This document shows positions 1 to 14,027 of a stretch of 23,523 nt of DNA, one piece after another (position 1 is the stretch's first letter; the number at the start of each line of letters is the position of its first letter). The position numbers and the translations under genes are program-made. The stretch covers positions 1-23,523 of the IMG/VR virus record IMGVR_UViG_3300048833_000243. One strand, given 5' to 3'. The notes beneath the pieces are model-generated. The model had not been told where the DNA came from, did not search any database, and was given only the letters and a program-made list of their open reading frames with translations. The stretch comes from a virus.

Positions 1-1515
1 TGGCGCGACACACACTGGCAGCGCGACGAGGCCGACCTCGAGGTGCGCTACCTGGCGCAGCAGATCGTCGACAAGATCAAGATCGAGGCCTTCGAGATCG
101 AGGCGACCGACGGCCAGAAGAGCGTGTTCCGCGCCTTCGACAAGCTGGTCGACAGCAAGAAGGAAGAGGACTGGAGCGCGACCGACAAGGCGCTGCGCAC
201 CAAGGTGGAGGCGATCCGCAAGAAGCTGGGCGAGAAGCGCTCGAAGCGGCGGAACTGGGCGGTGACCTCGGGCAATGCCGGCAAGACCACGGCCATGCTG
301 CAGCAGGCGCAAAGCCTCAAGTCGCTGCCTATCGAGCGGCTCGATGCCGACCCGATGCTGTTCAATTGCAGGAACGTGACGCTGCGCTTCCGGCGCGAGC
401 TGGACCCGGAGCGGCCGGATGACTCGGCCGAGCGCTGGGTGGGCGAGATCGACGTGCTCGACCACGACCGCGACCACATGATCACCAAGCTCGCCGACGT
501 CGACTACGATCCCGAGGCGACCTGCCCGTACTTCCTCGAGCAGTTCCTGTCCAAGGTGCAGCCCTCGGCCGTGCACCGCAAATATCTTCAGGTCGTGACG
601 GCCTATGCGCTGCTGATCGCCGGCAACGATGCCCAGCGGCTGATCTACCACTACGGCACCGGTGCTAACGGCAAGTCGGTCTTCATCGAGCTGATCGGCC
701 GGCTCGCCGGCAGCTATCGCTCGATCGCCTCGCCCGAGACGGTGACCGGCGACGGGCAGCGGCAGGGGCAGCAGGCCAACCCCGACATCGCCCGGCTGCA
801 CAATACCCGCCTGGTGACGATCGAGGAGCTGCCCAAGCACACGCCGCTGCGCGAGGAGCTGGTGAAGGCGCTGACCGGCGGCACCAAGATCCTCGCGCGC
901 TTCCTCAACAAGGACTTCTTCGAGTTCATGCCTGTGTTCGTGCCGGTGCTCTCCGGCAACTCCAAGCCGGCGATCAACGGCGCCGACTACGGCATCTGGC
1001 GGCGCCTGCTGCCCGTGCTGTGGGGCGTGACCATTCCCGAGGACGAGCGGATCGCGCCCTCCCTGCTGGCCGAGAAACTCGATGCCGAGCGGCCGGGCAT
1101 TCTCAACTGGCTCATCGAGGGGATGGAACTCTACCTCAAGTTCGGGCTCGACCCTTTCATCCCGCCCGAGGTGCGCGAGTTCTGGCAGGACTATCGCGAG
1201 GAGCGCGACAATATCGGGGTGTTCCTCGAGGTGGCACTGACAGCCGAGCCAGGCGGCGAGGTGAAGGCCGGTGCGATCTACAAGGCCTATACCGAGTGGT
1301 GCGAGGTGAACGCCATGCGCCCGGCCTCGCAGCGATCGTTCGGCGACAGCCTCGGCGAGCGCGGGCTCAAGAAGAAGCGCGGCAACTACGTGGTCTATCT
1401 CGACGTGCGACTGGTGCCCACCGCCAGCAAGTTCACCGAGGGCGTGCCCGGCAGCGCGTCGTCTCCGCCCCCCACCCCCTCCGACGATCCCGGCTGGCAG
1501 CCCCCGACCCCCTAG
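1..1515 (+). CDS. P4-type primase / superfamily 3 helicase, 3' part
   Basis: The reading frame is open from base 1, so the gene begins upstream; the GTG at 43 is internal rather than a convincing start. The visible part is the helicase half of a phage/plasmid primase (D5/P4 family), which unwinds DNA and primes phage replication. The Walker A motif GTGANGKS is at 655-678. A Walker B-like segment (TIEEL) lies near 820, followed by the helix-rich superfamily 3 core and a sensor-like asparagine (LSGNSKP, near 950-970). The C-terminus (about 1140-1430) resembles the winged-helix tail of TIGR01613-type proteins, with motifs such as EFWQDYREE and YKAYTEWCE. The last 25 residues are proline/serine-rich. 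Any primase active site would lie upstream of the window. The gene is followed by a repeat-rich non-coding region that could be regulatory or an origin. The family call is strong; the exact subfamily is not resolved. Confidence 0.9.
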   Translation, partial: WRDTHWQRDEADLEVRYLAQQIVDKIKIEAFEIEATDGQKSVFRAFDKLVDSKKEEDWSATDKALRTKVEAIRKKLGEKRSKRRNWAVTSGNAGKTTAMLQQAQSLKSLPIERLDADPMLFNCRNVTLRFRRELDPERPDDSAERWVGEIDVLDHDRDHMITKLADVDYDPEATCPYFLEQFLSKVQPSAVHRKYLQVVTAYALLIAGNDAQRLIYHYGTGANGKSVFIELIGRLAGSYRSIASPETVTGDGQRQGQQANPDIARLHNTRLVTIEELPKHTPLREELVKALTGGTKILARFLNKDFFEFMPVFVPVLSGNSKPAINGADYGIWRRLLPVLWGVTIPEDERIAPSLLAEKLDAERPGILNWLIEGMELYLKFGLDPFIPPEVREFWQDYREERDNIGVFLEVALTAEPGGEVKAGAIYKAYTEWCEVNAMRPASQRSFGDSLGERGLKKKRGNYVVYLDVRLVPTASKFTEGVPGSASSPPPTPSDDPGWQPPTP

Positions 1516-1553: not shown

Positions 1554-1633
1554 CGCGCGACCCCAGCGGTGGAGACAGTCGCGCCTCTGGCGCCACGCCC
1601 CGCACCCCTCCCAAGGCGAAGAAAAACGGAAGT

Positions 1634-1675
1634 CTCGACCGTCTCCGCGCTGCCGCGCGGCGACAGACGGTCGAG
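1634..1675. other. Long two-part hairpin
   Basis: CTCGACCGTCT (1634-1644) pairs perfectly with AGACGGTCGAG (1665-1675). Inside it CCGCGC (1645-1650) pairs with GCGCGG (1655-1660) around a four-base loop, leaving a CGAC bulge at 1661-1664. That gives 17 pairs. There is no T-run directly after it on the plus strand. On the minus strand an interrupted T-run begins some bases beyond the stem. It could end primase transcription, form a cruciform, or be a binding site. Confidence 0.6.
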
Positions 1676-1904
1676 AGAGTTAAGTGATAGTCGAATGCGA
1701 CTGTCTGCGGGTCAATACAATAGCAAAATCAACGGTTTGCAGACAATCGCAGACAGTGTGGACCTTCCTCTTCGCGTATACGTAGAGGGGGTGTGGGGTG
1801 GGCTGTTTCGAGTGCTGGTTGTCGAGGTCGATGCTCATCACGTTGGGGCAACTGTCTCGACCCTCTCCACTCTCTCTAACTCACTCTGCCTACGGCATTT
1901 TTCA

Positions 1905-1939
1905 TTGAGAGACAGTCTTGAGGGACTGTCTTGACTGTC
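1905..1939 (+). repeat. 13-bp tandem repeats forming a leader hairpin
   Basis: TTGAGAGACAGTC (1905-1917) is followed directly by TTGAGGGACTGTC (1918-1930; 11 of 13 identical) and a shortened TTGACTGTC (1931-1939). AGACAGTC at 1910-1917 can pair with GACTGTCT at 1924-1931, giving an eight-pair stem and six-base loop, or with the next copy at 1933-1940. These alternative pairings sit next to the AGGAG at 1942-1946, so folding or protein binding here could control the NusG-like gene. Confidence 0.55.
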
Positions 1940-1952
1940 TGAGGAGCGGCTT

Positions 1953-2684
1953 ATGGGCAAGATCGTTGCGAAGTGGCGTGATGAGCAGGGCATCGAGCAC
2001 ACCGAGGTGCGGCAGGGCGGGCTCCAGCGGCTCAGTGCGACACGTTCCGCGCTGGTTTGGCCGAAGCGGATGCTGGCCGCTCTGCACTGGTATGCGATCA
2101 AGGTGCGCGCCGGCACGGAGTTCGCGGTGGAGGCGATCCTCGAACGGCGCGGCTTCGTCGCCATCGTGCCGATGCATACCGAGTATCGCCGCGCCAACCG
2201 CTATGTGCGGCGGAAGACCAAGCGGAGCTATGTGATCGCGCCGAGCTATGTGCTGATCGGGTTCAACGAGGCGCAGCTGCGTGGCGGTGTCCTGGCGAGG
2301 GTGAAGCTGGCCAAGGGCAGGAGCGTCGTGCGGCTCGTCGGGGCGGCGGCGCCGTGGGAGCAGGTGTTCGCGATCTCGATGGTGATGTCGGTGGTGGGCC
2401 TCGGCGAGCAGGCCTGGCGGATGGACGGCGAGAAGACGGCCACCTTCATCAAGGAGAATGGGTCGATCGAGGCGCCGGTCGAGTTCGAGCATATGGGCAT
2501 GCGCGCTGGGCGAGAGTTCAAGGTCGGCGATATGGTGCAGGTGGTGGAAGGATCGCTCGCCGGGCTGACCGCCCGGGTGGCTGCCATCGACGGGATCGCC
2601 GCCAAGGTGCTGCTGCCGCTGTTCGGCAAGCAGGACCAGGAGTTCCCGCTCAAGGTCTCGGACCTCGAGCCGGTGGACGACTGA
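1953..2684 (+). CDS. NusG/RfaH-like transcription elongation factor (putative antiterminator)
   Basis: A 243-residue protein with ATG at 1953 and AGGAG at 1942-1946, six bases ahead. After a 44-residue N-terminal extension comes an NGN-type domain (about 45-145): HWYAIKVRAGTEFAVE, then RRGFVAIVPMHTEY and SYVIAPSYVLIGF match the NusG/RfaH strand-helix-strand core that binds RNA polymerase. Residues 188-240 form a KOW domain (FKVGDMVQVVEGSLAGLTARV, with IDGIAAKV after it). NusG-family proteins travel with RNA polymerase and affect pausing and termination; specialised paralogues such as RfaH act on particular operons. The gene sits between a repeat array and a terminator-containing leader ahead of the packaging genes, so I infer a late-gene antiterminator. 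The family is clear; the function is not shown by sequence alone. It is too diverged and too phage-embedded to be the housekeeping nusG. Confidence 0.85.
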   Translation: MGKIVAKWRDEQGIEHTEVRQGGLQRLSATRSALVWPKRMLAALHWYAIKVRAGTEFAVEAILERRGFVAIVPMHTEYRRANRYVRRKTKRSYVIAPSYVLIGFNEAQLRGGVLARVKLAKGRSVVRLVGAAAPWEQVFAISMVMSVVGLGEQAWRMDGEKTATFIKENGSIEAPVEFEHMGMRAGREFKVGDMVQVVEGSLAGLTARVAAIDGIAAKVLLPLFGKQDQEFPLKVSDLEPVDD

Positions 2685-2695
2685 CAGAACGGCTA

Positions 2696-2723
2696 TTGAC
2701 CGACTGAGGCGAAGCACCATAGC
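2696..2723 (+). promoter_or_regulatory. Candidate sigma-70-type late promoter
   Basis: TTGACC at 2696-2701 matches five of six bases of a -35 box. CATAGC at 2718-2723, after 16 bases, is a weak -10 with three matches (ATAGCT at 17-base spacing is an alternative). It starts 12 bases after the NusG-like stop codon and would drive the leader and packaging genes. Weak support; start-site mapping would decide. Confidence 0.35.
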
Positions 2724-2733
2724 TTCCCATCCC

Positions 2734-2777
2734 AACGGACGATCCGTTGATCCGTCGCAGGCCGCCTCACCGAGGCG
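2734..2777 (+). other. Two short hairpins in the leader
   Basis: AACGGA (2734-2739) pairs with TCCGTT (2743-2748) around a three-base loop. CGCCTC (2763-2768) pairs with GAGGCG (2772-2777), again around a three-base loop. If transcription starts at the candidate promoter they lie at the very 5' end of the transcript, ahead of the terminator at 2845. Their placement recalls the two-hairpin put sites of phage HK022, but there is no sequence evidence of homology. Confidence 0.45.
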
Positions 2778-2844
2778 CGATACCCGAGCGGCGAGCGGAC
2801 CCAGGTAGAAATGCCGAACGCCCGCCATGTGCCCAAAGTGATGT

Positions 2845-2878
2845 GCCCGCCCTGGCGACAGCGGCGGGCTTTTCGTTT
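2845..2878 (+). terminator. Intrinsic terminator
   Basis: GCCCGCC (2845-2851) pairs with GGCGGGC (2863-2869). CTG/CAG extends the stem around a GCGA loop, with one bulged C, and TTTTCGTTT follows directly. This is the clearest rho-independent terminator in the window. It lies between the NusG-like gene and the HNH/terminase genes, so transcription from upstream must pass it to reach the structural genes. Confidence 0.8.
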
Positions 2879-2962
2879 CCGGGTCTAGTCTTGAGGCGGC
2901 AGCATCCATGGTTGCGCACGATGGTGCGGGGGTGGGCTCGTCGGTTGTCGCCTCACCATCGA

Positions 2963-2974
2963 CCGCAAATTTGC
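2963..2974. repeat. CCGCAAATTTGC site, copy 2
   Basis: GCAAATTTGC (2965-2974) is a perfect palindrome. The 14 bases 2961-2974 are identical to 14376-14389. It lies just upstream of the GGAGG of the HNH gene, a suitable place for a repressor. Confidence 0.4.
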
Positions 2975-2985
2975 ATCGGAGGTGG

Positions 2986-3357
2986 ATGTTGGGGAAGCTC
3001 AAGGCCCTGCCATCGCGCCTCGCCACACTGACACCACGCATCGGGTTCGCACCGGGTGACGCCAAGGCGGCGGATACCTCGCGCACCGTGATGGCGCCAT
3101 GGCGCGCCTGGTACAAGACCGAACGCTGGCGCAAGCTACGGCACGAGGTGTTCCTGCGCGACCTCTACAAGTGCCAGCGCACCGGCGTGCTGTGTGTCGG
3201 CAAGCATCCGGCGCCGAACAGTCCGGTCGCCAACCACAAGGTTCCGCACAAGGGCGATGAGGCCCTGTTCTGGGACATCAACAACATCGAGACGGTGTCG
3301 AAGGAAGTGCACGACGGGCTGATCCAGTCCGAAGAGCGCGCGCTGCCTCGGACATAG
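2986..3357 (+). CDS. HNH endonuclease, packaging-associated
   Basis: A 123-residue protein; the frame is open further upstream, but ATG 2986 has GGAGG at 2978-2982 and gives a natural N-terminus, despite tight three-base spacing. The conserved phage block PWRAWYKTERWRKLRHEVFLRD is at about 38-59. The HNH core follows: H84 (in ANHKVPHKGDEALFWD), N99/N100 and H109 (in VSKEVHDG). HNH proteins next to terminase genes are known to work with terminase in DNA packaging and cohesive-end cutting in HK97-like phages. The zinc-binding cysteines usual in this family are partly missing: only C63 and C70 remain in the first loop, and the second pair (normally CxxCH) is replaced by SKEVH. It may use a degenerate or metal-free scaffold. 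It is followed by a G9 tract. Confidence 0.8.
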   Translation: MLGKLKALPSRLATLTPRIGFAPGDAKAADTSRTVMAPWRAWYKTERWRKLRHEVFLRDLYKCQRTGVLCVGKHPAPNSPVANHKVPHKGDEALFWDINNIETVSKEVHDGLIQSEERALPRT

Positions 3358-3430: not shown

Positions 3431-3913
3431 GTGGACGGGAATTTTGACCTCTTTGGGCTGCCGATCGTCGACCGGTCGGCTGGTCCGGGTCGGCCGCCAT
3501 ATGTGGTGACCGAGAAAAACTCCAACAAAGTCAAGCTGTTGCTGGCTCTTGGCTGGGCGAACCAGCGGATCGCCAACGGTCTTGGCATCTCGCTGGCGAC
3601 GCTGAAGCGGTATTTTAGAGCCGAGCTCAAAGTGCGCGACATCATGCGCGATCAACTCGAAGCCCGTCGAATCGAGATGGCGATGGAGCAGGTGAACGCC
3701 GGCAACGTCGCCGCACACAAGGTCCTGGCCAACCTCATCGACCGCAACGATCGTATGGAGGTAGAGCGCCAGATGGCGGCGGCGCCTGCCCAGCCGACTT
3801 CGGAGAAGGGTCCGATGGGCAAGAAGGTCGCGGAGAAGCAGCGAGCAATCGATGCGGACGCCGACCTGATGGCCGAGCTCGAAACCGAAGCTGCCGGCAA
3901 TGCTCGACACTGA
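3431..3913 (+). CDS. Terminase small subunit-like DNA-binding protein
   Basis: A 160-residue protein starting at GTG 3431, with AAGGA 11 bases upstream; no better start is available. Residues 31-60 hold a helix-turn-helix (NKVKLLLALGW, then IANGLGISLATLKRYF), followed by a charged helical part (VRDIMRDQLEARRIEMAMEQ) and an alanine/lysine-rich tail. The arrangement of a DNA-binding head with an oligomerising helix is that of small terminase subunits, which recognise the phage packaging site and hand DNA to the large subunit. It lies directly ahead of the large subunit and overlaps it by 14 bases. I recognise the family from alphaproteobacterial prophages, where it is sometimes annotated only as a helix-turn-helix protein. 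Confidence 0.75.
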   Translation: MDGNFDLFGLPIVDRSAGPGRPPYVVTEKNSNKVKLLLALGWANQRIANGLGISLATLKRYFRAELKVRDIMRDQLEARRIEMAMEQVNAGNVAAHKVLANLIDRNDRMEVERQMAAAPAQPTSEKGPMGKKVAEKQRAIDADADLMAELETEAAGNARH

Positions 3914-5612
3914 CCTTCCTCGCTTCTCGTGCCCCGACTGGTGGGAGAGGCTGCAGGCTGGCGAGATGCCGATGCCGTCGGTGCCGCTCGATGAAGACCG
4001 AGCCGCGAAGGCGGTGGCTTTCTTCAACCGGCTGCGGCTGCCGGACGTGCCCGGGACGCCGACCATGGCCGAGGCCTGCGGCGAGTGGTTTCGCGAGATC
4101 CTTTGCGCGTTCCTTGCCAGCAGCGACCCGGAGACCAAGCGGCGCTTGGTCTGGGAACTGCTCTGCATGGTCCCGAAGAAAAACTCGAAGACGACCTATG
4201 TCGCGGCCCTCGGGTTGACGGCGCTATTTCTGGAAGAAGCGCCGAACCGACAGATGCTCATCGTGGCGCCGAGCCAGAACATATCGGAGCGCTGCTTCGG
4301 CCAGGCACAGGGCATGATCCGGCTGGACCCGCGGCTCGATGCCATCTTCGGAGTGCAGGACCACCTCAAGTGCATTACCCGCCGAAAGACGGGTACCAAA
4401 CTCGAGGTGAAAACCTTCGATACCACGATCGTCACCGGCGAGATCCCGGTACTGACGATCATCGACGAGCTGCATGAGATCGGCAAGAAGGCGAAGGCCG
4501 CCGCGGTGATGCAGCAGATCAGGGGTGGCGGCATTACGCAGCAGGGTGGCCAGGTGCTAATGATCACCACCCAGAGCGACGAGACCCCCGCCGGGGTATG
4601 GAAGACCGAGCTAGACAAGGCGCGCAGGATTCGTGACGGCAAAGGTGGCAAGGCACCCATCCTGCTGCCGGTGCTGTACGAGTTTCCGCAGGAGCTCCAG
4701 CGCAACCAGGACTATTGGCGCGACCGCCGAAACTGGCCGATCGTCTTGCCGAACCTTGGCCTGTCGATCGACGAGCAGCGACTCGTTGAGGACTATGAAA
4801 ACAACGGCGTCGTCAGCAAGGAAGCCGAGCAGATCTGGGCCAGCCAGCATCTCAACATCGAGATCGGTGTAGGCATCGGTGGTGATGCATGGGCTGGCGC
4901 AGTGCACTGGCAAGCTTGCGCCGAGAAGCTATGCGGCCTGAGTGATCTGCTTCGCCGCTCCGAGGTGTGCACGCTTGGCGTTGACTGGGGTGGCGCGGAC
5001 GACCTGGCTGCCCTGTATGTCATCGGCCGGGAGAAACGTACGAAGCGCTGGCTGGGCTGGGGCCGCGCCTGGGCGCGACCGACAGTCTTCGAGCAGCGCA
5101 AAGGAATCGCCCAGCGCTTGCGCCAGTTCGAAGACGACGGGGACCTCGTGATCGCCCGCTCTGGTGAAGAGCAAGCCGAAATGGCGGCGGCAATCTGCCG
5201 TGAGGTGGCTGACAGTGGACTGCTCCCAGAGGCAGCCGGCATCGGCCTCGACAGCGCCGGAGTGGCTCTGCTGCTGGATGCGCTCGAAGCGGAGCGACTT
5301 GTGCAGCCCCAGGTGGTCGCGGTGACGCAGGGCTGGAAACTGCAAACCGCAATCTCGTCGGTCCCGCTGAAGCTGGAAGACCGTCGCATGGTTCACGGAG
5401 ATCAACCCATCATGTCGTGGAGTGTCGGCAACGCCAAGCAGACGCTGCGCGGCAGCAACTACGTGGTCACGAAGGAAGTCTCCGGCGCGGCCAAGATTGA
5501 CATGCTGATGGCGATGTTCAACGCGGCCATGCTGATGTTCGCCAACCCTGAAGCCGCGAGCGGCGGCCGCATCGACGACTATTTCGATGCGCTCCTGGGC
5601 GAACCGGCATGA
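3900..5612 (+). CDS. terL: Terminase large subunit
   Basis: A 570-residue packaging motor of the HK97 (Terminase_1) type. The ATPase part has a variant Walker A motif VPKKNSKTT (91-99), a Walker B VLTIIDE (184-190), and a coupling segment MITTQSD (221-227). The nuclease part has GVDWGG with D362, a second acidic position in GIGLDSAG (D451), and a late aspartate in KIDMLMAMFNA. It pumps phage DNA into the prohead and cuts concatemers. It starts inside the end of the small subunit gene and ends overlapping the portal start by four bases (ATGA), so translation is probably coupled. All expected motifs are present and the length is normal. Confidence 0.95.
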   Translation: MLDTDLPRFSCPDWWERLQAGEMPMPSVPLDEDRAAKAVAFFNRLRLPDVPGTPTMAEACGEWFREILCAFLASSDPETKRRLVWELLCMVPKKNSKTTYVAALGLTALFLEEAPNRQMLIVAPSQNISERCFGQAQGMIRLDPRLDAIFGVQDHLKCITRRKTGTKLEVKTFDTTIVTGEIPVLTIIDELHEIGKKAKAAAVMQQIRGGGITQQGGQVLMITTQSDETPAGVWKTELDKARRIRDGKGGKAPILLPVLYEFPQELQRNQDYWRDRRNWPIVLPNLGLSIDEQRLVEDYENNGVVSKEAEQIWASQHLNIEIGVGIGGDAWAGAVHWQACAEKLCGLSDLLRRSEVCTLGVDWGGADDLAALYVIGREKRTKRWLGWGRAWARPTVFEQRKGIAQRLRQFEDDGDLVIARSGEEQAEMAAAICREVADSGLLPEAAGIGLDSAGVALLLDALEAERLVQPQVVAVTQGWKLQTAISSVPLKLEDRRMVHGDQPIMSWSVGNAKQTLRGSNYVVTKEVSGAAKIDMLMAMFNAAMLMFANPEAASGGRIDDYFDALLGEPA

Positions 5613-10164: not shown

Positions 10165-10446
10165 ATGGCTATTGCCCAGATCCTCGCGGTCGGCACGACC
10201 GCTGCCGACAGCTCCGACGTTGTGGTCGCCAACGGTTCTTCCCTGGCGGTGTGCCTCAAGGACGCGGCCGGTCCACGTGTGGCGCTGGGCGCCCTCGTGC
10301 ACATCCTGATGAAGGACGACGCCGGACAGTACTTCCGCGTCGGCCAGCTCAATGCCGAGAAGCCGGCAGCGGTGATCGACGGCGGTGGGACCTATCGGTT
10401 CAGCCGGGTGGCAGGCATCTCCTGCGGAGTTTTCCAGGGTGCCTAA
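10165..10446 (+). CDS. Small beta-rich phage protein, unknown role
   Basis: A 93-residue protein with AAGGA ten bases ahead of ATG 10165. The sequence (MAIAQILAVGTTAADSSDVV, LAVCLKDAAGP, ALVHILMKDDAGQYFRVGQL, GTYRFSRVAGISCGVF) reads as an all-beta sandwich, like small decoration or fibre-associated modules. It overlaps the start of the following SGNH gene by eight bases, so the two are probably translated together and may form one virion appendage. No known function. Confidence 0.7.
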   Translation: MAIAQILAVGTTAADSSDVVVANGSSLAVCLKDAAGPRVALGALVHILMKDDAGQYFRVGQLNAEKPAAVIDGGGTYRFSRVAGISCGVFQGA

Positions 10447-11815
10447 GTCGCTCCTGCGCCCGGTGGTGCGCCCGCTTGTCACTCAGCTGGTGAAGCGTGG
10501 CCCGGCACTCGCCCCATCTGAGGGCGTGGGGGTGGCGTACAGCGAAGAAGCAGAGGCGTTCTTCGCGCGGCTCGACGCGCTGTCGGTGCCGGCAGACGAT
10601 GCGCGCAAGGGATCAATCGACCGGTTCTACAAGCGCGTCGGCGCTGCGATCCTCGGCAAGCTCGACACGCTCTACCTCGCTGGTGCGAACGAACTCACCT
10701 GGCGGCAGAACCTCGTTCAGGACGCCTACAACCTGACGCCGACCAACAGCCCGACCTTCGTGGCGGACAGCCATGTGGTGGGGAATGGCTCCAACTCCTA
10801 CTACGACACCGGATTCAACCCGACGACGGCGGTGTCGCCGAAGTACACGCAGAACGACTGCTGTCAGTTTATCTTCACCCTGACCGACCTGCCGAACGGC
10901 GGCAGCTCGAGCGCCGACATCGGCAACGCCACATCCTTCATCGCGCGGCATGCGACGGTGTCAGGGCGCTCCACCGGCCGGGCGCAGCATGCCTCGACGT
11001 CGGGGCAGTTCGGGCTCGCCACCTATCCGGGCTTCGTCGGCTGGCGGCGCACCGGTGCGAGCCAGCTCTATGGCCTCGCGCAGGGCTTCGACGAGTTGTC
11101 GCTGACCACGGCGAGCGCGGCGCCGAGCAACAGCAACTTCCGCATCTGTGCGGCGAACGGCTTCGGCCTTGGCGTCAACCAGATCGCTGCGGCCGGCTGG
11201 GGGCAGGCCCTCAGCCAGGGCGAGATGCTGACGGTCAAGGCGGCGATCCGCGCCTACCTGCAGGAGATCGGTGCCATCCCGATCACCATCGTCGGCTACG
11301 GCGACAGCACCGCGCTCGGCACCGGGGCGACGAACTGGAGCACGACCTGGCTTCGGGGCCTCGGCGGGCTCTACACGCCGAAGCGGGTGGTGGAGACACG
11401 AGGCGTCGCCAGCTACACGACAGCCGACATGCTGGCGCGCGTGGAAGCGGACGGCGAGCACTATGCCGACGAGATCGTCGTCTTCATGGACTGGACCAAC
11501 ACAGGCGAGGATGCCGGCGACGCCATCGCCAATCTCAAGGCGGCAGCTGGGGCATCAGGGGCTCCGAAATGGTTCGTGATGCCGCCGGCACAGGATGTGC
11601 CGGACCCCGGCACCGCCAATGTCGCGGCGGTGCAGGCGGCGCTGCTCCTTGATCCGTTCTTCGCCGGGCATACGCTCGGCAGCAGCGAGCAGGCGGCGTA
11701 CCTGGCGGCCGTGAACTCGGCCGGCGAGCGGTCGGACGGCAAGCATTTTGACGACAGCGGCCAGTCGATACAGGCCACCTACATCAAAGCGGCACTCGAC
11801 GGCGCGGGCTGGTGA
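10439..11815 (+). CDS. Phage appendage protein: LamG-like domain plus SGNH hydrolase
   Basis: A 458-residue protein. I choose GTG 10439 (GGAG ten bases upstream, overlapping the previous stop); the frame is open further upstream but there it only shadows the preceding gene. Residues 1-100 are helical. About 100-280 resemble a concanavalin/LamG-like sandwich (NSYYDTGF, QFIFTLTD, NGFGLGVNQIAAAGWGQALS). About 280-458 form an SGNH/GDSL esterase domain: block I GYGDST with S290, block II RGVASYTT, block III MDWTNTGED with N354, and block V SDGKHF with D433 and H436. Such proteins remove acyl groups from polysaccharides. A sugar-binding-like domain fused to an esterase suggests a virion enzyme acting on host capsule or O-antigen. 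The location among head-tail joining genes is unusual. Confidence 0.75.
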   Translation: MPKSLLRPVVRPLVTQLVKRGPALAPSEGVGVAYSEEAEAFFARLDALSVPADDARKGSIDRFYKRVGAAILGKLDTLYLAGANELTWRQNLVQDAYNLTPTNSPTFVADSHVVGNGSNSYYDTGFNPTTAVSPKYTQNDCCQFIFTLTDLPNGGSSSADIGNATSFIARHATVSGRSTGRAQHASTSGQFGLATYPGFVGWRRTGASQLYGLAQGFDELSLTTASAAPSNSNFRICAANGFGLGVNQIAAAGWGQALSQGEMLTVKAAIRAYLQEIGAIPITIVGYGDSTALGTGATNWSTTWLRGLGGLYTPKRVVETRGVASYTTADMLARVEADGEHYADEIVVFMDWTNTGEDAGDAIANLKAAAGASGAPKWFVMPPAQDVPDPGTANVAAVQAALLLDPFFAGHTLGSSEQAAYLAAVNSAGERSDGKHFDDSGQSIQATYIKAALDGAGW

Positions 11816-11825
11816 CGGGGTGGCT

Positions 11826-12683
11826 CTATTGCGACCGTTGCGCCCGTCCATTGATCGCTGCGGCGAGGGCGCGGGCCACCCGTTCTATGCCCATCGGCGA
11901 GAGGTGCAGGCCATCTGGTTTACGGGTTTCAGGATCATCAAGGATCGGGGCCAGATCGACGAAGTTGTCAGGGTACTGCCGCGACAGCTGCTCGTTTATG
12001 GCGGCGGTTATTGCCGCGTCGGTCGTCGGGTCCGGGATGTTATTGCTGGGCAGCAACTGGCGGATATCCGAGACGACGATGAAGTCGCCGGTCGCTCTCG
12101 CCTTCTCGATGATCGGAGCAAGGTCCCGAAGGTAGGCGGCCGGGTCCTGGGCGGTGTGGTGCCGATCCCAGACGATCTTGAAGCGTCGCTCGAAGCGCGT
12201 GTCGGCGAGCATACGCTCTGCGATCTGTTGTCCGGTCTCGCCAGGGACGCCCTGCATCGACACGGACCGTCCCGGCAGGAGCCGGGCCAGTTGATCGCCG
12301 AGAGTTCTGTCCGACAGGCTGTCGCCCCACACGACGATGTCCTGAGTGTCCCACTGGGGCAGGGTGCCTCGTTCACGATCGCGCTTCAGGATCGCCCAGC
12401 GCGCCTCCTCGGCGGCCAGCACTGTGCTGGCTTCGCCATCGATCCTAAGGAGTTTGCCGGAAACGTAGCCATCGAACGCCGCTCCTGTGACGTGGCAATA
12501 GTCACCTTCCCGGAAGCAGATTGAAACGCTCACCGCAGTCCCGGCGGGCAGCGTGCCGACCTGAAGCGCATTGAGGCTAGGTGCCGCCCTCAAGGCAGTG
12601 GCCGCAGTGGTGGTGGCGCGATAATGCGCCCCAGAGGCGGCGGCGGTCATCATGAGCGACAGAATAACGAACTGACGAAACAT
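11826..12683 (-). CDS. Secreted SH3b-SGNH hydrolase-like protein
   Basis: A 285-residue protein on the opposite strand from the late genes. Residues 1-19 look like a signal peptide (MFRQFVILSLMMTAAASGA). About 24-81 match a bacterial SH3 domain (ALRAAPSLNALQVGTLPAGT, then YCHV and GYVSGKLLRI), usually binding cell wall. About 112-280 form an SGNH domain: block I VVWGDSLSDR with S122, block II GVPGETG, and block V PDGLHL with D257 and H260. The block III asparagine is not evident; the equivalent segment reads VWDRHHTAQD. Its own promoter is expected in 12684-12810. Secretion and orientation suggest a lysogeny-expressed moron modifying the host envelope. Substrate unknown; catalytic competence uncertain. 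Confidence 0.75.
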   Translation of the reverse strand: MFRQFVILSLMMTAAASGAHYRATTTAATALRAAPSLNALQVGTLPAGTAVSVSICFREGDYCHVTGAAFDGYVSGKLLRIDGEASTVLAAEEARWAILKRDRERGTLPQWDTQDIVVWGDSLSDRTLGDQLARLLPGRSVSMQGVPGETGQQIAERMLADTRFERRFKIVWDRHHTAQDPAAYLRDLAPIIEKARATGDFIVVSDIRQLLPSNNIPDPTTDAAITAAINEQLSRQYPDNFVDLAPILDDPETRKPDGLHLSPMGIERVARALAAAINGRAQRSQ

Positions 12684-12810
12684 CGCGGTCCCCAGAGAAT
12701 ACGGGGCAAACTACAGCAACATGCGTTGTCGGCAAGTAGCCCCTATGTGCCTGCCGATTGATGTTAACATCGCCGTGCCCTAAGAAGCCAAGGCAGGGGA
12801 GGGCGAAAGA
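12684..12810. promoter_or_regulatory. Divergent promoter region with 12-bp palindrome
   Basis: This gap separates the minus-strand SGNH gene from the plus-strand methyltransferase. GATGTTAACATC at 12760-12771 is a perfect palindrome in an AT-richer stretch and is a good operator candidate. On the minus strand a weak TTGCCG / TAGTTT pair with 16-base spacing lies upstream of the SGNH start. GGGGAGGG at about 12797-12803 is the ribosome binding site of the methyltransferase. Confidence 0.5.
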
Positions 12811-13557
12811 ATGGGCATGGTGCTGGCGCATCGACCGGAAATGGCAGCGGGAGATATCGCTAGAGACGACACGGCAGTCGCGTTCTACCTTCGGATATCC
12901 GCACTGCTACGGCCGGAGTTCAGTGTCCTAGACTTTGGTGCGGGCCGCGGAGCCCAGCTTGAGGGACCCCTTAACTACCGAAAGTCTCTTGCAAGGGTTC
13001 GTGGCAAAGTCCAGCGCCTCGCTGGCTGCGATGTTGACCCTGTTGTGCTTCAAAACCAACACCTCGACGACGCGGCAGTTATCGATGGTTCGGGCCCGCT
13101 CCCTTATGAGAGCGAAACCTTTGATCTGATTTATGCTGACTGGGTCTTGGAGCATCTCGATCACCCTGCCGCGTTCGCTGACGAAGTCTCGAGGGTCCTG
13201 AAGCCGGGCGGTTGGTTTTGCGCTCGAACGCCCAACAAGTGGGGTTACATTGCCCTTGGAGCGAGGCTTGTGCCGCGAAAGTTGGAAGCTGCGGTGCTCC
13301 ACCGGCTGCAACCAGCGCGTCGGGAAACCGACGTATTTCCTAAGCACTATAAACTCAACACCCTGCGGAGCATCGCCAAGGCCTTTCCCAGCAACAGGTG
13401 GGACAATGCATCTTTTTCGATGAATGCCACACCGACCTACCACGGCGGCAACACTCTGCTATTTGCAGCCATCGATGCTTTTCAAATGCTCACGCCATCG
13501 ACAATGAACACGGTGTTGCTGGCCTTCCTGCAAAAGAAGTCGGAGCATCTGCCCTAA
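12811..13557 (+). CDS. Class I SAM-dependent methyltransferase
   Basis: A 248-residue protein with a strong GGAGG seven to nine bases before the ATG. The Rossmann fold is clear: motif I VLDFGAGRG (39-47), the acidic turn GCDVDP (72-77), DLIYADWVLEHLDHP (105-119) and VLKPGGWF (129-136), as in the Methyltransf_11 group. There is no target-recognition domain or DPPY-type motif, so it is not an obvious DNA methylase; small-molecule, sugar or lipid substrates are likelier. Codon use is less GC-biased than in neighbours (many codons ending in A or T), which suggests recent acquisition. With the adjacent SGNH proteins it may belong to a surface-modification cassette. Confidence 0.8.
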   Translation: MGMVLAHRPEMAAGDIARDDTAVAFYLRISALLRPEFSVLDFGAGRGAQLEGPLNYRKSLARVRGKVQRLAGCDVDPVVLQNQHLDDAAVIDGSGPLPYESETFDLIYADWVLEHLDHPAAFADEVSRVLKPGGWFCARTPNKWGYIALGARLVPRKLEAAVLHRLQPARRETDVFPKHYKLNTLRSIAKAFPSNRWDNASFSMNATPTYHGGNTLLFAAIDAFQMLTPSTMNTVLLAFLQKKSEHLP

Positions 13558-13571
13558 GGTTGGCTTGCGTG

Positions 13572-13610
13572 CCCCCCCCCCACGCCCCATCATCTTCTGT
13601 GGCCCGTTTA
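13572..13610. repeat. Left half of a bipartite inverted repeat
   Basis: C10 followed by AC (13572-13583) and TGGCCCGTTTA (13600-13610) are inverted relative to TAAACGGGCCA (14330-14340) and GTG9 (14362-14372). The inner 11-mers include the stop codons of the two divergent genes they enclose. Confidence 0.5.
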
Positions 13611-14027
13611 TGGTTCGAACTGGTCGAACCTGATGGTGCCCAGCTTGGCGGCGACGAGCATGCGGTGGATGGCACCGGCCCGGCCGTTCGTGACTTCGGA
13701 GTGGCCGAGCAGCAGGTAGAGGAACTCCTGCGGGTCGGTGATGTCGAGCGACCGCATGACCTGGTCGAAGCCCTGCTGGCGGATCAACTCGAGCATCTTG
13801 GCAGTGCCGGCGGCCGATAGGCGAGGGTCGTGACCACCGTCGCGCTCCCAGATGTCGCGGCCGGCGGGCTGGCCTGGTGCCGGTGCGATACGGTCGAGCA
13901 GTTGACGCAGCGCGTCGCGGACGAACTTGGAGCGGCCCTTGGGGCCGACGATCGCATCCATCCTGTCGAGCAGATCCTGCGGCAGGTTCAGGTGCGTGGT
14001 GACGTTGTGAAGCGGTGGCCGGCCCAT
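13608..14027 (-). CDS. Ribbon-helix-helix DNA-binding protein
   Basis: A 139-residue protein on the minus strand. Residues 9-46 match a ribbon-helix-helix fold (Arc/CopG type): the strand TTHLNLP, helix DLLDRMDAIV, then GRSKFVRDALRQLLDR, the classic second helix with the SKFVRDA pattern. The remaining 90 residues are helical and unrecognised, perhaps an effector or oligomerisation domain. No strong ribosome binding site precedes the ATG, so the start is less certain. It is divergent from the 87-residue gene, with 41 bases between starts, so it may repress both itself and that gene. Confidence 0.75.
   Translation of the reverse strand: MGRPPLHNVTTHLNLPQDLLDRMDAIVGPKGRSKFVRDALRQLLDRIAPAPGQPAGRDIWERDGGHDPRLSAAGTAKMLELIRQQGFDQVMRSLDITDPQEFLYLLLGHSEVTNGRAGAIHRMLVAAKLGTIRFDQFEP

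Follow-up and report, generated by a model that had tools for sequence, protein, structure and literature searches.

Genes at the locus

The stretch of DNA analyzed here (the window), a virus record of 23.5 kb, begins within a gene for a P4/D5-type primase-helicase, the C-terminal part of which is encoded at 43..1515 (+ strand; TIGR01613, 187.6 bits with a cut-off of 108.7; phrog_1156, E 5e-104). The primase-helicase is the upstream neighbor of a NusG-like gene (1953..2684, + strand), which is thereby placed between it and a series of HNH, terminase, portal, protease and capsid genes. The first gene past the leader terminator encodes an HNH endonuclease (2908..3357, + strand; phrog_589, E 3e-23), the start codon of which is uncertain. 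The late operon begins with 3431..5612, which comprises a helix-turn-helix protein in the small-terminase position (3431-3913, + strand; phrog_12540) and the large terminase (3900-5612, + strand; phrog_9, E 2e-92; PF03354/PF20441). The initial annotation had described the order as NusG-like gene, promoter-like site, leader, strong terminator, HNH, terminase and structural genes, and this order was confirmed in the window. Weak DNA matches to phages of Rhodobacter, Mesorhizobium, Agrobacterium and Paracoccus suggest an alphaproteobacterial host group.

The structural operon contains a cargo-like gene block (10385-14027). It includes a GDSL-type hydrolase with an SH3 domain (11826-12683, - strand), a class I methyltransferase (12811-13557) and a possible ribbon-helix-helix protein, recognized by eye only (13608-14027, - strand).

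The NusG-family protein and its relatives

The product of 1953-2684 (243 amino acids) had been described as an NGN-KOW protein, and the profile searches agree. The NGN domain is matched by PF02357 (E 4e-8, 34.1 bits with a cut-off of 22.2); the KOW matches are weak and below the cut-off, yet rightly placed. The family phrog_6386, 'transcription antiterminator', matches the protein at E 3e-16, and only NusG, RfaH and Spt5 are found at the top of the profile and fold comparisons, the structure model itself being poor (pLDDT 62, low confidence). The protein is a member of the NusG/Spt5 superfamily with NGN and KOW domains. Its scores lie below the cut-offs of the housekeeping NusG equivalog (TIGR00922; 26.7 bits, cut-off 135.7), the RfaH equivalog (TIGR01955; 21.5 bits, cut-off 144.5), LoaP (NF033641; 26.7 bits, cut-off 125) and UpxY (NF033644; 39.8 bits, cut-off 100). 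All of its family matches are NusG-type and none is to a Q protein family.

Relatives of the protein are present in five other distinct phages. Protein scans located them in L002 (81% identity), in L004 and L005 (62%), which are one phage sampled twice, and in L006 (58%); the relative in L086 (31%) was found with a KOW-domain profile. The remaining phage, L017, was previously unseen and was among the 65 stretches returned by a DNA scan with the leader only (CGCAGGCNGCN{6,18}CCCGAGCGG). It encodes a diverged NusG (129.8 bits, about 32% protein identity), the stop codon of which is just upstream of the leader match. A protein search found no relatives in phage records at E 1e-3 or in plasmids at E 0.01, and weak matches only at E 10; scans of genome contigs found none.

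Conservation of the locus

A search of related phages for the same arrangement, proposed in the initial annotation, showed the order primase, NusG, leader, terminator and terminase in all six phages found. Lambda gpA-type terminases follow in L002, L004 and L017, and an HNH gene with an HK97-like large terminase follows in the window, L006 and L086, the types in the relatives having been read from translated sequences and not from a library scan. Because the gene order is constant across two unrelated terminase modules, the leader travels with NusG and not with cos or the terminase.

The window and L002 are 43% identical in the 14 bases before the -35 hexamer TTGACC, 100% in TTGACC, 83% in the promoter spacer, 93% from the -10 through the first leader hairpin (H0), 88% in the RNA element, 93% in the terminator, and 43 - 45% beyond; the third codon positions of their NusG genes are 62% identical. 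The conserved block extends from the -35 to the terminator. Comparison among the phages supports the gene, the promoter-like site, the RNA fold and the terminator, as well as their linkage and the occurrence of the element once per genome.

An array of 8 - 11 bp repeats on both strands lies between the primase and NusG genes (window 1560-1950; L002 4580-5000; L004 4600-5020; L006 4600-5015; L017 6220-6650, - strand). The positions of the repeats are kept, but the repeat word is not the same in all phages: AGACAGTC in the window and L002, the AGAGGGTC type in L004 and L006, ACCCTCGC in L017 and the CTAGGGA type in L086. The central inverted pair still pairs around CCGCGCTGCCGCGCGG. The array probably represents replication-origin iterons, or operators that evolve with their binding protein. 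The palindrome-like sequence CCGCAAA(A/T)TTGCGG occurs in the window at 2961-2975 and, before NusG, at about 1539-1555, and past the terminator in L002, L004 and L017. It may belong to cos or be recognized by a protein.

Promoter and terminator

A putative late promoter (2696..2725, + strand) follows the NusG stop codon. The -35 hexamer proposed in the initial annotation, TTGACC at 2696-2701, is correct. The best -10 hexamer is TAGCTT at 2720-2725, which moves the end of the promoter by two bases; it is spaced from the -35 by 18 bases and keeps positions 1, 2 and 6 of TATAAT. Transcription would start at about 2729-2735. A generic sigma-70 scan found no promoter here, and the call is therefore based on conservation: the promoter is conserved in L002, L004 and L006 and similar in L086, and L017 retains CAGCTT with no clear -35. 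The pattern TTGAC[ACG]-N17/18-[TC]AG[CG]TT matches six unique sites across 1.39 Mb when both strands are counted, of which five (in the window, L002, L004, L006 and L086) are located at the stop codon of NusG. The pattern was composed after these sites were seen, so that the count demonstrates rarity and is no independent test. Four phages share the sequence CGAA in the spacer, which is not clear in L017 and L086; it makes a DNA loading site possible.

The strong intrinsic terminator reported at the end of the leader (2845..2877, + strand) was found again with coordinates differing by no more than two bases. It consists of a hairpin at 2845-2869 (GCCCGCCCTG-GCGA-CAGCGGCGGGC, with a GNRA loop) followed by TTTTCGTT at 2870-2877, and has a folding energy of -22.3 kcal/mol (z -3.8). 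None of 200 shuffled sequences was equally good, and across both strands the window has no better terminator. A simple terminator scan did not pick it up, owing to a bulge. The terminator is kept in L002, L004 and L006; in L017 and L086 a different terminator takes its place.

The leader RNA element

The initial annotation placed two small hairpins at 2734-2777. The first, the 5'-terminal H0 (AACGGA-CGA-TCCGTT, 2734..2748, + strand), does fold (-4.8 kcal/mol, z -2.7), but its pairing is poorly kept in the relatives, being partly broken in L002 and L006. The second, at 2763-2777, forms an arm of a more extensive conserved structure (2749..2826, + strand) that had been missed. This structured RNA element of about 80 nt is present in the leaders of five of the six NusG phages. 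The sixth, L086, has NusG, the promoter and the terminator, with no recognizable RNA element.

Minimum-energy folds of the five leaders give one shared architecture. An outer stem (P1; 2753-2758/2788-2793) is followed by an A/GA internal loop and a variable inner hairpin (2763-2768/2772-2777), and then by a second domain (P2), whose outer stem is at about 2795-2798/2818-2821 and whose variable hairpin is at 2804-2807/2812-2815, all on the + strand. The P1 outer stem is CGUCGC/GCGGCG, and UGUCGC/GCGGCA in L004 and L006, which is a compensatory C-G to U-A change. The letters of the inner stems vary in nearly every phage, and their pairing is complete in all five: CGCCUC/GAGGCG, CGCUUU/GAAGCG, CGCUGA/UCAGCG, GCUCCA/UGGAGC and CGCUC/GAGCG in P1, and GGUA/UGCC, GGCAU/AUGCC, GCCU/AGGC (twice) and CCAGU/ACUGG in P2. 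Compensatory changes occur in three helices. One U-G pair is present in all five elements, and there are also C-G to U-G changes on the + strand, which argues for an RNA of that strand.

With a sequence-only alignment, 92.8% of the cells in the helices are paired, compared to 31 - 45% when the partners are slid, and nine double-change cells are observed compared to 3.9 in shuffles (none of 500 reached the observed number). The set consists of five distinct copies, one of which was also found via its own sequence, and because it is small and its members are related, the covariation is strong but not final. The RNAalifold alignment places the inner stem of L006 one base off, and the pairing was checked by hand. 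Single-sequence folding of the element is mildly better than that of shuffles (z -1.6 and -1.5).

A covariance model (R1) built from the five elements detects a single copy in each of the five phages, in every case directly behind NusG, including in L017, with scores of 80 - 97 bits; the best other match in 656 kb has 21 bits. As a negative control, a looser leader pattern listed 76 further loci, with neither the RNA element nor NusG in any of them. In the window, an Rfam search gave nothing at the gathering score and chance-like permissive matches, so the element fits no family there, and a tRNA/tmRNA search gave none. The possibility of a small ORF in the leader was rejected because the lengths of the element in the relatives (78, 85, 81, 80 and 81 nt) differ by non-multiples of three.

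Comparison with known systems

Specialized NusG paralogs are known for capsule, antibiotic and conjugation operons of bacteria. In its architecture the phage locus corresponds to the lambda-type Q switch with PR'-tR', in which the regulator ends the early block and a promoter, a short leader and a terminator lie between it and the late genes. The initial annotation had drawn this parallel. As far as the order and the promoter/terminator layout are concerned it stands, but a NusG fold is found here instead of Q, and lambda Q uses a DNA site in the spacer plus a sigma-dependent pause (PMC6606751), whereas the phage leader contains a covarying RNA. The annotation left it open whether loading is through leader DNA or RNA. 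RNA, as for LoaP, is the more probable because the helices covary and each phage that has the element contains a single copy of it, found nowhere but behind NusG; CGAA could yet serve as a Q-type DNA site. With a structured nascent RNA as the more likely loading site, the nearest mechanism is that of LoaP and not of Q.

LoaP is a NusG paralog that requires a leader RNA hairpin for reading through the leader terminator, and loaP frequently adjoins its target operons (PMC12691694). The dfn and mln leaders of Bacillus velezensis resemble the phage locus in combining a NusG paralog with an operon behind a leader that has an RNA hairpin and an intrinsic terminator. The differences are that the phage protein falls outside the LoaP family, that its target would be a late operon, and that the dfn element is one UNCG hairpin whereas the phage element has two domains. 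None of the loops in the five phage elements is of the UNCG type (ACC, ACAUU, CCU, GUG, GAUCA and GAAA, CACCGAU, CCUAGUU, CAAUAU, CGAU). RfaH and ops are similar in that a NusG paralog may be recruited to a specific operon, but the phage protein scores below the RfaH cut-off and the leader lacks an ops-like site: there is no match with two or fewer mismatches between 2690 and 2880, the nearest being at 2895-2905, past the terminator, and the number of matches is close to that expected by chance.

GafZ, which belongs to the gene transfer agent of Caulobacter, likewise controls a phage-like particle cluster by antitermination in an alphaproteobacterium, but is described as non-NusG and, so far as is known, loads at a putative DNA element between the -35 and -10 (PMC11150451). 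The put RNA of HK022 is a structured nascent RNA that affects phage transcription termination; it is described as acting alone (PMC9378689), whereas the phage element occurs only together with NusG. No account of this NusG-leader arrangement as a late switch was found in the open-licence papers searched, where absence is not proof. The only prior proposal there of phage late regulation by a NusG paralog concerns Helicobacter pylori prophages, which carry a NusG-like protein proposed to aid lysis-gene transcription; the passage concerned describes no leader element, promoter or terminator layout (PMC11321410).

A proposed late switch

The NusG paralog would be made from the last gene of the early (replication) block. 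The promoter directly behind its gene would fire, and the transcript would normally end after roughly 140 nt at the terminator. During transcription of the leader, 2749-2826 would fold into a two-domain RNA, the loading signal for the NusG paralog, and the loaded polymerase would pass the terminator and continue through the packaging, head and tail genes. We infer that the paralog reads the leader RNA and that the outcome is readthrough (antitermination). Very probably the system is a late switch of the Q type with a NusG paralog as its regulator; that the paralog loads via the leader RNA and suppresses the terminator at 2845-2877 and beyond has, in our estimate, a probability of about two-thirds.

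The same switch might have NusG loaded through DNA, either at the promoter spacer or at the non-template strand of a pause, with the RNA fold merely timing the pause or protecting the RNA. The sites of Q and GafZ do lie between the -35 and -10 (PMC6606751, PMC11150451), RfaH reads non-template DNA, and CGAA is common to the spacers of four phages. Double changes that preserve pairing while the letters change point instead to RNA shape, and together with the lack of an ops-like site they make DNA loading unlikely. Could the RNA act alone on RNA polymerase, leaving the adjoining NusG gene another job? The HK022 put RNA shows that a leader RNA can suppress termination by itself (PMC9378689). The phage element, however, is found only behind NusG, even in the phage that was discovered via the RNA alone, and a stand-alone element would give the late genes no timing, so that this reading appears very improbable.

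A promoter, a fold and a terminator also define a discrete transcript of about 140 nt, which might be a small trans-acting RNA whose place before the late genes is incidental. It is hard to reconcile with this idea, which we consider highly doubtful, that the location is always between NusG and the terminase, and that other phages retain the promoter and terminator there without the element. The least probable reading is that the conserved block is a DNA site, either for cos and packaging or for a replication origin beside the primase. The block does sit between the primase and terminase genes, and origins contain hairpins; it runs, however, from promoter to terminator, and the separate upstream repeat array is a better origin candidate. 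Because the block is kept ahead of two unrelated terminases, and because the U-G pair common to all copies and the changes from C-G to U-G suit a + strand RNA, cos or an origin was rejected as the cause of conservation.

Loading of the NusG paralog via the leader RNA remains the preferred reading. The odds are somewhat better than even that the system represents an undescribed class of phage late switch, in which NusG replaces Q and a two-domain nascent RNA of its own recruits it, the first such case in phages, and in which unrelated antiterminators can be exchanged for one another in the regulator's slot between the replication and packaging genes. With one protein, an RNA of about 80 nt, one promoter and one terminator, the system is compact and could therefore be rebuilt in vitro and used to test how NusG proteins gain operon specificity.

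The same slot in other phages

In phages and phage-plasmids that have a related primase but no NusG, unrelated proteins occupy the NusG slot. RcapNL gp01 (L016 139-897) and Pthi1 p23 (L013 6725-7483) are 38% identical to each other and have no family match; their genes lie ahead of HNH/terminase and are followed by TTGAC and a terminator. These two proteins are candidate late antiterminators of another type. In AmM-1, RR1-A and MesoLjLa5 the slot is filled by phrog_9306, a family of unknown function (L012 6915-7826, L014 9034-9810, L015 7573-8409), again with TTGAC and a strong terminator following, and this protein is a candidate late regulator.

The slot holds three unrelated protein families in 11 phages, including the six with NusG. 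TTGAC is found within -19 to +50 of the stop codon of the slot gene in ten of the 11, and a terminator follows the slot gene in all of them: at +74 to +190 by the scan in ten, and by alignment in L002, where a weaker T-tract puts it below the scan threshold. The background frequency of the combined TTGAC/terminator signature is 0.043 per kb (1.3 Mb). The leaders are 74 - 112 nt long without the RNA element, 181 - 190 nt with it, and 117 nt in L086. The pattern supports the view that the slot belongs to a late regulator whose target comprises a promoter and a terminator, and the occurrence of unrelated proteins in one such slot offers a way of searching unannotated phage genes for late regulators.

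The 46-kb Methylobacterium currus plasmid NZ_CP089299.1 (L011, 4554-12149) also encodes a primase, with 43% identity to that of the window, and has type I-E CRISPR-Cas genes nearby. This plasmid is possibly a phage-plasmid with CRISPR.
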